This document shows positions 61,245 to 63,615 of a stretch of 64,000 nt of DNA, piece after piece; position 1 is the stretch's first letter; every line of letters begins with the position of its first letter. The notes under the pieces were generated by a model. It was not told the origin of the DNA. It saw nothing but the letters and a program-made list of their open reading frames with translations, and ran no database searches. The stretch is from Candidatus Nitrotoga sp. SPKER (GTDB lineage: Bacteria > Pseudomonadota > Gammaproteobacteria > Burkholderiales > Gallionellaceae), in NCBI GenBank assembly GCA_003402285.1, contig QFXG01000024.1, positions 62,001 to 126,000 on the forward strand, read 5' to 3'. Made by a program: the position numbers and the translations under genes.

Positions 61245-61273
61245 TTTTTCAACTATGAAAGAAATAATTTGTG

Positions 61274-62023
61274 ATGAGGAAAATATTATTCGTTTTTTTA
61301 AGCTTACTTCTCTCCGCATGTGACTCAAAGATAGATGGAACATATTCCAACAACATGACTGGGATAGCTGAGCAAAAGGTGAGCTTTACATTTCAGCCAA
61401 ACGGAACAGCTCGCATGTCTATCGGGAGCGACACGCTACCAATAGAAATACCGTACGAAATAAGTGGGAATAAGATTAAACTGTCTGGGGTTGAAGGTGA
61501 TCAAACTGTTATCATTTTAGATGATGGTGATTTGATAATGAACGGGCTACGACTCACAAAAGAAACTGTGTCAAAGTACCCTACTGTTGTTGAGATCCCC
61601 GCACAGACAACAAAATCCACACCAAACACAGTACCTGTGGCTGTCGCCGAACCTAAGCCTGTTACTGTAACAATGCCAACTTCCATACAAATTCAATTGT
61701 CACAGCAAACGAAGTGGGTGCCAAGTTTCGATTGTGCCAAGGCATCAAATTTTGCTGAGAAGGCGATTTGCACCGATTCCTTGCTCGGAAAATTGGATGG
61801 TAAATTATCGGAAAATTATAAAAACATGCGCGCGTCAGACATTGGAGATGGTGTCAGAAATACCCTGAAAGGAACTCAGAAGAGATGGCTCACAGAGCGC
61901 AACAAATGTACAAACAACCAATGCTTGGCTGAAGTCTATAGAAAGCGTATTGACGAAATTTGCGATTATCGTGTTATATCGGGAGTGAATCCAATTTGCA
62001 CATCCACCGATGACATCAAATAG
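61274..62023 (+). CDS. Lipoprotein with C-terminal LprI/DUF1311-type domain
   Basis: A 249-residue protein with a signal ending in lipobox LLSAC, a beta-rich middle part (residues 20-95), a Pro/Thr linker (about 100-140) and a C-terminal DUF1311/LprI domain with the CAKAS...AEKAIC and LKGTQKRWLTERNKC motifs and paired cysteines. LprI-type proteins are thought to inhibit lysozyme, but the function of this one is unknown. ATG at 61274 directly follows a GTG. Confidence 0.72.
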   Translation: MRKILFVFLSLLLSACDSKIDGTYSNNMTGIAEQKVSFTFQPNGTARMSIGSDTLPIEIPYEISGNKIKLSGVEGDQTVIILDDGDLIMNGLRLTKETVSKYPTVVEIPAQTTKSTPNTVPVAVAEPKPVTVTMPTSIQIQLSQQTKWVPSFDCAKASNFAEKAICTDSLLGKLDGKLSENYKNMRASDIGDGVRNTLKGTQKRWLTERNKCTNNQCLAEVYRKRIDEICDYRVISGVNPICTSTDDIK

Positions 62024-62081
62024 GCCTAAGATTTAACTCCACTAGGTGCTACGCCAAAGGCGGCACAACACCAATGTATTC

Positions 62082-62261
62082 TCAAACATAAAGCAGCAGT
62101 ACTGTTAATTTCCAGTACCCATACATGAGCAATTCCCGTCTTGCCAAACTTTCAACCATGGTTTTAAGAAAGTTAAAATTGTAACTATTGATCCAGCCCG
62201 ATAAAGTACCAAGCGGTATATCGAGAGCGCTTGCCCTGAAAGTAGCCCAGAATCGTTCCAT
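62082..62261 (-). other. Unassigned 59-codon minus-strand frame in the metZ upstream region
   Basis: An ATG at 62261 opens 59 codons to a TGA, with protein-like sequence (GWINSYNFNFLKTMVESLARRELL). No clear ribosome-binding site and no known family; it may be a gene remnant. The remaining part of this 400-bp gap holds the metZ promoter and riboswitch. Confidence 0.2.
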
Positions 62262-62273
62262 GGTAGTCGGATG

Positions 62274-62302
62274 TTGACAATGATGTGTACCAGATGTTAA
62301 TT
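62274..62302 (+). promoter_or_regulatory. Sigma-70 promoter of metZ
   Basis: A perfect -35 TTGACA (62274-62279) is followed after 17 bases by GTTAAT (62297-62302), four of six -10 positions. The predicted transcription start, near 62309, coincides with the first base of the riboswitch aptamer. Confidence 0.65.
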
Positions 62303-62308
62303 TTGCAT

Positions 62309-62364
62309 ACGCGCCGATTTGAGGAACAGCTTGCGGGCGCTTTATAAATACAGCTAAAGCGGGT
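62309..62364 (+). ncRNA. SAM-II riboswitch aptamer upstream of metZ
   Basis: The sequence follows the SAM-II (metA/SAM_alpha) pattern in order: P1 5' arm GCGCC (62312-62316), GATTTGAGG loop, CTTGC, P1 3' arm GGCGC (62337-62341), then ATAAAT (62345-62350) and GCTAAAG (62354-62360), as in the known aptamer ending ...AUAAAUGUAGCUAAA. The ligand would be S-adenosylmethionine, and the controlled gene (metZ) belongs to the pathway usually regulated by this class. Immediately followed by a terminator. Confidence 0.82.
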
Positions 62365-62369
62365 GAAGC

Positions 62370-62404
62370 CCGGTTTAGCTTAAGCTATCCGGGTTTTTTA
62401 TTTT
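62370..62404 (+). terminator. Intrinsic terminator (attenuator) between the SAM-II aptamer and metZ
   Basis: Stem CCCGG (62370-62374) with CCGGG (62390-62394), continued inside by TAGCT (62377-62381) with AGCTA (62384-62388), and a T-rich tract after it. CGGG at 62361-62364, right at the 3' end of the aptamer, can instead pair with CCCG at 62370-62373 and block the terminator, which gives a plausible SAM-off switch. Confidence 0.85.
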
Positions 62405-62421
62405 GCACGAGGGAGTACGTT

Positions 62422-63615
62422 ATGCCAGAACAATCTAACCAAGCAGAAAAATTTACTCAGCTGGAAACACTCGCAGTACACGCGGGTACAAAGCGCAGCC
62501 AATTTAATGAACATAGTGAGGCACTGTTTCTCACTTCCAGTTACGTATTCGATAGCGCGGCTCAAGCCGCCGCACGCTTTATCGGTGCAGAGCCGGGTAA
62601 TATTTATTCGCGCTTCACCAACCCTACCGTTACTATGTTTGAGGAGCGTTTAGCCGCGCTGGAAGGTGCGGAGCAGTGTGTGGCGATGGCGTCAGGTATG
62701 TCGGCAATTTTGGCGTGCTGCATGGGTTTGCTGAAAAACGGGGATCACATCGTTGCTTCGCGCAGTATATTTGGTTCGACAGTAAATTTGTTTGGCACCA
62801 TCTTTAAACGTTTTGGTGTAGACACAACTTTTGTTTCTGCCACTGATGTGAACGAGTGGGAAGTTGCGATACGACCTAGCACACGGCTATTTTTTCTGGA
62901 GACGCCGTCTAATCCGCTTACTGAAATATCTGACATTGCAGGCATTGCGGCAGTGGCGAAGCAGCATGGTGTATTGCTGGCAGTAGACAATTGTTTTTGT
63001 ACCCCCGTGCTGCAACGTCCGCTGGAATTAGGCGCGGACATCGTGATTCATTCCGCTACTAAATATCTTGATGGGCAAGGACGTGTATTGGGCGGTGCAG
63101 TGCTGGGCAGCAAGAAAGTGATGGAGCCTATCTATCAGTTTTTGCGTACGGCGGGGCCGACTATGAGCGCATTCAACGCATGGGTATTTCTGAAGGGCAT
63201 GGAGACGTTGAAGATTCGTATGGATGCCCACAGCGCTAATGCGCTGTCCGTGGCGCAATGGCTGGAGGCGCAGGATAATGTGGTGCGGGTGTATTACCCC
63301 GGTCTGCCGTCTCATCCACAACATGAACTGGCGATAAAGCAGCAAAAGGCGGGTGGCGGTATCGTATCGTTTGAAATAAAGGGTGGTAGAGAGGAAGCTT
63401 GGCGTCTTATTGATAGTACGCGCATGGTTTCGATTACCGCTAACTTGGGCGATACCAAGACCACATTAACTCACCCAGCCACCACCACGCATGCCCGTAT
63501 CACTCAGGAGGCTAGAGATGCAGCGGGTATTAGTGAGGGCTTGCTGCGCATTGCGGTCGGATTGGAAGCCGCGAGCGATATCCAGGCCGATCTGGCACGC
63601 GGGTTGTACATATAA
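62422..63615 (+). CDS. metZ: O-succinylhomoserine sulfhydrylase MetZ
   Basis: PLP enzyme making homocysteine from O-succinylhomoserine and sulfide, by-passing cystathionine. The 397-residue Cys/Met-metabolism family protein has ALFLTSSYVFDSAAQAA, YSRFTNPTV, MASGMSAI and the PLP lysine in HSATKYLDGQGRVLGG (Lys near 215). GLEAASDIQADL at the end. GGGAG lies 8 bases before the ATG. Controlled, as inferred, by the upstream SAM-II element. Confidence 0.95.
   Translation: MPEQSNQAEKFTQLETLAVHAGTKRSQFNEHSEALFLTSSYVFDSAAQAAARFIGAEPGNIYSRFTNPTVTMFEERLAALEGAEQCVAMASGMSAILACCMGLLKNGDHIVASRSIFGSTVNLFGTIFKRFGVDTTFVSATDVNEWEVAIRPSTRLFFLETPSNPLTEISDIAGIAAVAKQHGVLLAVDNCFCTPVLQRPLELGADIVIHSATKYLDGQGRVLGGAVLGSKKVMEPIYQFLRTAGPTMSAFNAWVFLKGMETLKIRMDAHSANALSVAQWLEAQDNVVRVYYPGLPSHPQHELAIKQQKAGGGIVSFEIKGGREEAWRLIDSTRMVSITANLGDTKTTLTHPATTTHARITQEARDAAGISEGLLRIAVGLEAASDIQADLARGLYI

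Follow-up and report, generated by a model that had tools for sequence, protein, structure and literature searches.

The SAM-II riboswitches (Rfam family SAM_alpha, RF00521) are the closest described relatives of the element considered here. According to Corbino 2005, the minimal aptamer is under 70 nt and the transcription start of the class usually lies a few bases before stem P1, and a Bordetella bronchiseptica sequence is given among the representative metA (SAM-II) RNAs. SAM-II is described as most often accompanied by terminators in alpha- and betaproteobacteria (Barrick and Breaker 2007). A long outer helix of the pseudoknot P2 is reported for most representatives (PMC2704228), and the same source presents SAM-V as built on the pseudoknot plan of SAM-II, with many of the bases that contact the ligand in common. 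For the SAM-II metZ leader of Sinorhizobium meliloti, termination with SAM is predicted, and high-SAM conditions raise the level of its leader RNA RZ (PMC9373788). That report does not cleanly prove SAM-driven termination, since high SAM also lowered promoter activity and stabilised both the sRNA and the mRNA.

The metXZ element was reported as new in 35 betaproteobacterial genomes, alongside SAM_alpha and without a ligand; it stands before metX or metZ, comprises a pseudoknot and a terminator, and the metZ of Nitrosospira multiformis is named among its genes (Leyn 2014, PMC4239095). The Rfam family RF02424 (Bp2_287) represents the small RNA Bp2_Cand287 of Burkholderia pseudomallei, described as lying upstream of methionine genes in most genomes (PMC3521395). 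Among the papers listed and opened, few of them from subscription journals, none was seen to connect metXZ, RF02424 and SAM-II.

The present locus belongs to a nitrite-oxidising bacterium, Candidatus Nitrotoga (Gallionellaceae), and lies in a stretch of 64,000 nucleotides, the window, in which positions 62274-62421 hold a promoter, then a SAM-II aptamer and then an intrinsic terminator before metZ. The element shares with SAM-II the stem P1, the loop GAUUUG, the motifs UUGC and GCUAAA and the same covariance-model match, as well as a start just before P1 and a terminator before a methionine gene. Unlike alphaproteobacterial SAM-II, whose outer P2 helix can reach six covarying pairs (for example CCGG(C/U)C with G(G/A)CCGG), the Burkholderiales form has a short one (C-G, bulged A, G-C, C-G). 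The S. meliloti metZ leader of PMC9373788, an alphaproteobacterial case likened here by description, has the same gene name, class and predicted terminator mechanism. The metXZ element of Leyn 2014 (PMC4239095) agrees in genes, taxon, pseudoknot topology (1 with 4, 2 with 6) and poly-U terminator, and its description fits both the metZ and the metX leaders of the host genome (betaproteobacterium, pseudoknot plus terminator); base-by-base identity is presumed from this comparison of descriptions. A Nitrosospira metagenome bin (locus L073) carries the element, comparable with the N. multiformis metZ of metXZ. In 30 fetched loci RF02424 marks the same kind of leader, but the Rfam model reads the opposite strand.

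The metZ leader and its aptamer

The features of the leader, all on the forward strand, are as follows.

62274-62279, + strand: -35 hexamer TTGACA, read from the sequence, with a similar arrangement in 48/53 related metZ leaders
62295-62303, + strand: extended -10, TG T TAATTT (TG 62295-62296, TAATTT 62298-62303), read from the sequence
62311-62340, + strand: aptamer stem P1, GCGCC 62311-62315 with GGCGC 62336-62340, from the covariance match and alignment
62316-62322, + strand: conserved loop L1, GAUUUGA, from the alignment
62327-62334, + strand: 5' strand of pseudoknot P2, C-A-GCUUGC with A 62328 bulged, from the alignment
62353-62361, + strand: 3' strand of pseudoknot P2, GC-UA-AAGC plus G 62361, from the alignment
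62353-62379, + strand: antiterminator hairpin, from folding
62368-62399, + strand: intrinsic terminator with U tract 62394-62399, from folding
62410-62415, + strand: Shine-Dalgarno-like AGGGAG, read from the sequence
62422-63615, + strand: metZ, O-succinylhomoserine sulfhydrylase, 397 aa, from the ORF and NCBIfam

The two promoter hexamers are separated by 18 nt, as read from the sequence. A strict consensus promoter scan did not list the metZ promoter; a looser pattern occurs in the 48 related metZ leaders among the 53 with a model match, the window itself excluded, against 0.7% of mononucleotide-shuffled upstream stretches, and the extended TG in 45 of the 53. In the related metZ leaders carrying the pattern the -10 ends 6-9 nt before P1, so the metZ transcript probably begins at P1, and from the promoter position the start is predicted at about 62309-62311. 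Upstream of the promoter lies an ORF of 250 aa (61271-62023), for which NCBIfam gave no match at E <= 1e-10. The metZ product matches the NCBIfam O-succinylhomoserine sulfhydrylase with 584.8 bits (cut-off 510), and homocysteine is, by that name, the product of the enzyme.

The first-pass annotation had read this leader as a promoter, a SAM-II-type aptamer beginning at the predicted start and a terminator directly before metZ in a betaproteobacterium, and the reading was borne out. The RF00521 alignment spans all 79 positions of the model, covers 62301-62378 and scores 33.2 bits, and the terminator hairpin described below folds better than its shuffles (z -3.4). The match has an E-value of 6.9e-6 in a scan of 398 bases and of 1.3e-5 over the 2.98-Mb genome, where the next listed match reaches 18.8 bits; the SAM_alpha covariance-model search that had been proposed as a check is thus significant, though under the gathering score of 36, which is a curation threshold and not a structural feature. 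A default Rfam scan at the gathering threshold reported nothing over the 64-kb window. Since all 19 genomes of the genus match RF00521 at E <= 0.01 (4/19 over the cut-off), with 0/14 among the controls, the sub-threshold score is a matter of cut-off, not chance. Four families were listed for 62024-62421 at E <= 10, and SAM-V (RF01826) was not one of them. Weak Rfam matches of Anti-hemB and NsiR1 over terminator-like hairpins were set aside.

P1 encloses GAUUUGA (62316-62322) and CAGCUUGC (62327-62334), and GCUAAAGCG (62353-62361), whose G 62361 pairs with C 62327 in P2, makes up the aptamer's 3' part. The conserved SAM-II core of GAUUU, UUGC and GCUAAA is present; in SAM-II these bases contact SAM. 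Assignment of the leader to the SAM-II family is made with high confidence, and we infer that SAM is its ligand.

Conservation was followed in an alignment of 62 leaders, hand-picked for diversity from 106 unique elements found by motif pattern and taking in two with an extra G beside P1. All five P1 pairs form in all 62, compensatory (both-side) changes occur at three of the five, and RNAalifold, which cannot draw pseudoknots, recovers P1 unprompted. The covariation score of P1 and P2 together was reached by 0/500 shuffles, a count that overstates significance because the aligned leaders are related to one another. Alone, P1 folds no better than shuffles (z -0.7). The P2 strands are paired in 97.5% of cells over the 62 sequences, one pair failing in 11/62, and as P2 is almost invariant its covariation in the betaproteobacterial set is uninformative; support for the predicted P2 pseudoknot comes from complementarity and from likeness to SAM-II. 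AUUUG, GCUUGC and GCUAAAG are invariant in the 62 leaders, and an A in place of the first U of GCUUGC occurs in 0/62.

The outer P2 helix has two pairs in 62/62 leaders (C-G, or U-G in 2), with G-C or G-U in 51/62, a further pair in 41/62 and the next in 14/58. Comparison was made with an alphaproteobacterial-type set fetched by RF00521 at phylum level (L169-L198), presumed to be alphaproteobacteria because they belong to the same phylum but another class and because of the known range of the family. Examples of the longer helix, judged by eye, are CCGGCC/GGCCGG in L169 and CCGGUC/GACCGG in L178. The compactness that had been singled out as unusual is ordinary, as a start near P1 and a minimal aptamer of <70 nt are usual for SAM-II according to Corbino 2005.

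Competing folds and the proposed switch

The terminator hairpin (62368-62393, -14.4 kcal/mol, z -3.4) pairs CCCGG 62369-62373 with CCGGG 62389-62393 around an inner UAGC/GCUA. Its 5' arm can be taken up by an antiterminator, in which GCUAAA 62353-62358 pairs with UUUAGC 62374-62379 and CGGG 62360-62363 with CCCG 62369-62372, giving ten Watson-Crick pairs between GCUAAA-G-CGGG and CCCG-G-UUUAGC. The CGGG/CCCG pairing had been proposed to create mutually exclusive folds, and this is supported, with the pairing now seen as part of the longer hairpin 62353-62379. That hairpin has -15.6 kcal/mol and z -4.2, none of 200 shuffles being as good, and shares bases with both pseudoknot P2 and the terminator. 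Folding of the whole leader, with energies that leave out the pseudoknot and SAM, places the antiterminator form at -29.7 and the terminator form at -28.7 kcal/mol (probabilities 0.53 and 0.47). As the transcript grows, all of the antiterminator has been made by 62379, ahead of the terminator.

Related leaders show comparable complementarity. Among 50 unique leaders (the window plus metZ loci), complementary runs of at least 6 bases link GCUAAAGnnn with the terminator region in 42 and CAGCUUGCG with it in 21; for GCUAAAGnnn the mean is 5.8 against 4.3 in shuffles. Among the other leaders with a T run (48 of 54 examined), the runs come from GCUAAAGnnn in 11 and from CAGCUUGCG in 21. For the window alone, the longest single run between aptamer and terminator is not beyond chance (shuffles as good: 15%, 10%), and only the whole antiterminator hairpin beats shuffles.

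From these elements, a mechanism can be proposed in which RNA polymerase would start at or just before P1. At low SAM, GCUAAAGCGGG (62353-62363), free of the aptamer, would pair with CCCGGUUUAGC (62369-62379) once this is made, and the antiterminator would occupy the terminator's 5' arm, letting metZ be transcribed. At high SAM, GCUAAA would be held in the pseudoknot and SAM pocket together with GCUUGC and GAUUUGA, leaving CCCGG free to pair with CCGGG; the terminator would then form and transcription would stop some 20 nt short of the metZ start codon. Because GCUAAA belongs to both pseudoknot and antiterminator, SAM binding should release CCCGG and the switch should be an OFF switch. We estimate at roughly 0.85 the probability that the metZ leader is a SAM-II riboswitch acting by SAM-OFF transcription attenuation. 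The attenuation mechanism is held with good confidence, while the switching itself and its OFF direction are deduced from the overlap of the folds. Within this analysis, the basis comprises sequence, family match, P1 covariation, energetics and conservation.

The aptamer could instead act chiefly on translation or transcript stability, behind a constitutive terminator. Such a case has a parallel in S. meliloti metA, where the terminator after the SAM-II aptamer is not predicted to be SAM-responsive (PMC9373788), and a translational layout is seen upstream of metX in the leaders L124 and L130, where GCUAAAGAGGU continues directly into an ATG as in a translational form of the switch. In the window, however, GCUAAA of the aptamer itself forms part of the hairpin that blocks the terminator, and the Shine-Dalgarno-like sequence at 62410-62415 stands apart from the aptamer, past the terminator, which leaves this explanation a small chance.

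Attenuation by SAM would not be confined to metZ. A model built from the element alignment, R1, finds two copies in the host genome, before metZ and before metX (C28:68363-68424). As the window is in the R1 alignment, along with many of the relatives that were fetched, matches to those arise by construction, and the evidence lies in matches elsewhere. The gene at C28:68527-69579 is over the NCBIfam cut-off for homoserine O-succinyltransferase MetX, and MetX and the metZ product, both over their cut-offs, catalyse consecutive steps. The metX leader likewise carries a terminator-like hairpin and a T run; its P1, GUGCC/GGCAC, differs from the GCGCC/GGCGC of the metZ copy by a compensatory change. 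An earlier view that the genome holds a single SAM-II copy was wrong: the whole-genome RF00521 search missed the metX copy, which scores 34.6 bits in a direct scan, again under the gathering score of 36. Match counts from whole-genome model searches are therefore lower bounds, weak matches being partly lost. The metX copy would let both enzymes on the way from homoserine to homocysteine be shut off together.

Spread and downstream genes

Nine Candidatus Nitrotoga records, with proteins 88-95% identical, are among the nearest metZ relatives. Among the best 80 of 555 related metZ loci, the element is present in 53, and in 50 of these 102-254 nt separate the start of the element from that of the metZ match downstream; the other 27 gave no element match in the stretch examined. 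In L060, L068 and L083 a 206-aa ORF lies between riboswitch and metZ, and its gene may have joined the regulon.

Among 399 Burkholderiales genomes, R1 matches 303 at E <= 0.001 and RF00521 184 at E <= 0.01, two counts obtained at different thresholds; only 69 are over the RF00521 gathering score. Over 299 genomes of the phylum, both at E <= 0.001, R1 matches 62 and RF00521 58. R1 has 38 matches in genomes outside the class, of which 28 coincide in place and strand with RF00521 and 10 do not. The suggestion that the locus extends the range of SAM-II fails, as betaproteobacterial SAM-II and its terminators were already published. Nor do the counts support the alternative suggestion of a mark of transfer: with 303/399 Burkholderiales genomes matching R1 and 19/19 of the genus matching RF00521, horizontal transfer from alphaproteobacteria is not favoured, and the breadth of R1 matches in the order suggests old vertical descent.

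Downstream genes were assigned by likeness, with NCBIfam checks on single examples. At 30 loci fetched by RF00521 (L108-L137), the gene is metX in 11, metZ in 9, metK in 2, metH in 1 and a cystathionine gamma-synthase-like gene in 3, with 4 lacking an assignment. MetK of L122 and the cystathionine gamma-synthase family protein of L120 are over their NCBIfam cut-offs, the latter name replacing an initial metY label, whereas the methionine synthases of L137 and L155 are fragments under the cut-off. In three loci that RF02424 fetched, L143, L166 and L167, a MetN-like gene lies behind the element; in L143 MetN is the best NCBIfam match, at 374.6 bits under a cut-off of 499.7. Over the fetched loci the element thus precedes metX, metZ, metK, metH, metN and others.

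Several arrangements were seen in passing. The SAM-II-type leader stands directly before metK (SAM synthetase) in L122 and L128, and, judged by the printed ORF start, the element also precedes metK in L144, L157, L165 and L168; in L122 a SAH riboswitch lies downstream of the leader. Tandem model matches about 110-170 nt apart occur in L115, L146, L147, L160, L202, L205 and L206. In L115, L147, L160 and the single-copy L132 the first downstream ORF of at least 90 aa encodes a small protein, and the two tested, of L160 and L132, gave no Pfam match.

The shorter outer pseudoknot helix of the betaproteobacterial form, compared with the alphaproteobacterial one, could point to a SAM-II shape with a changed ligand, such as SAH or another methionine-cycle compound, and the spermidine riboswitch is described as a ligand-switched variant of a SAM aptamer (PMC10853860). 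Against this, the core AUUUG, UUGC and GCUAAA is unchanged, the assigned genes (all but 4 of 30 loci) serve homocysteine, methionine and SAM synthesis and uptake, and separate SAH riboswitches are present in genomes of this order; a changed ligand at metZ is very unlikely. SAM remains the expected ligand there.

More divergent relatives were found before metK-like ORFs in Burkholderiales (L232, L233, L235, L237 and L239; R1 32-40 bits), where no Rfam family matched at the element position at E <= 0.05. They mostly carry GAGUUAA, ACAACUUGC and GCUAAAGCGUCGC, L239 being different. Others, L221-L224 and L226, from a single family that belongs to the class but not to the order, have an insert in the second loop (GCGCCGAUUUA, ACUUGC, GCUAAAGCGCUGG), precede an ORF of about 100 aa and gave no Rfam match at E <= 0.05.

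Probably one element under three names

RF02424 matches the metZ leader on the minus strand with 21.9 bits (E 0.006), short of its cut-off of 70 bits. At E <= 0.01 it matches 117/399 Burkholderiales genomes, 3 of them over the cut-off, and part of these weak matches may have arisen by chance; among the controls 1/14 responded weakly (E. coli) and none passed the cut-off. In all 30 fetched RF02424 loci (L139-L168), including the 3 over the cut-off, R1 matches the same place on the opposite strand, though many of these sequences are also in the R1 alignment. Given this agreement, RF02424 reads the complement of the SAM-II-type leader, and its Rfam record seems to be on the wrong strand. That the locus is no riboswitch at all, but an attenuator working through a bound protein or a leader peptide, or else the antisense small RNA that the weak minus-strand RF02424 match would imply, is the least credible account and has next to no chance, since all 30 fetched matches lie opposite a SAM-II-type element, metZ or metX lies downstream in the sense direction wherever either is found at these loci, promoter and terminator are on the sense strand, and 62305-62400 contains no ATG, the one start codon looked for.

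A broader joint reading is offered tentatively, with odds a little short of even for the whole. The betaproteobacterial element would be a SAM-II subclass of its own, marked by a shortened outer helix of the pseudoknot and present in most Burkholderiales, which Rfam largely misses and holds in one family on the wrong strand. It would govern a methionine-SAM regulon made up of a cystathionine gamma-synthase-like gene and metX, metZ, metK, metH and metN, and would stand in tandem in some leaders. More distant relatives would precede metK in some Burkholderiales and, in a family of the class beyond this order, a small gene of no assigned function; a few of these remote forms may differ in ligand preference.

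The metZ switch itself, from a candidate genus, is genuine but nothing out of the ordinary for a SAM-II attenuator, and the element is widespread in Burkholderiales, apparently under three names, SAM-II, metXZ and RF02424 Bp2_287. The interest lies in the joining of these three records and in the shortened pseudoknot helix, the claim about range not being new. The orphan metXZ element gains a ligand hypothesis, SAM, and a small-RNA family of Rfam, RF02424, is apparently stored antisense to a riboswitch. Because the gathering score reports so few of the Burkholderiales genomes that R1 matches (69 against 303 of 399), the SAM-II model needs a betaproteobacterial companion.
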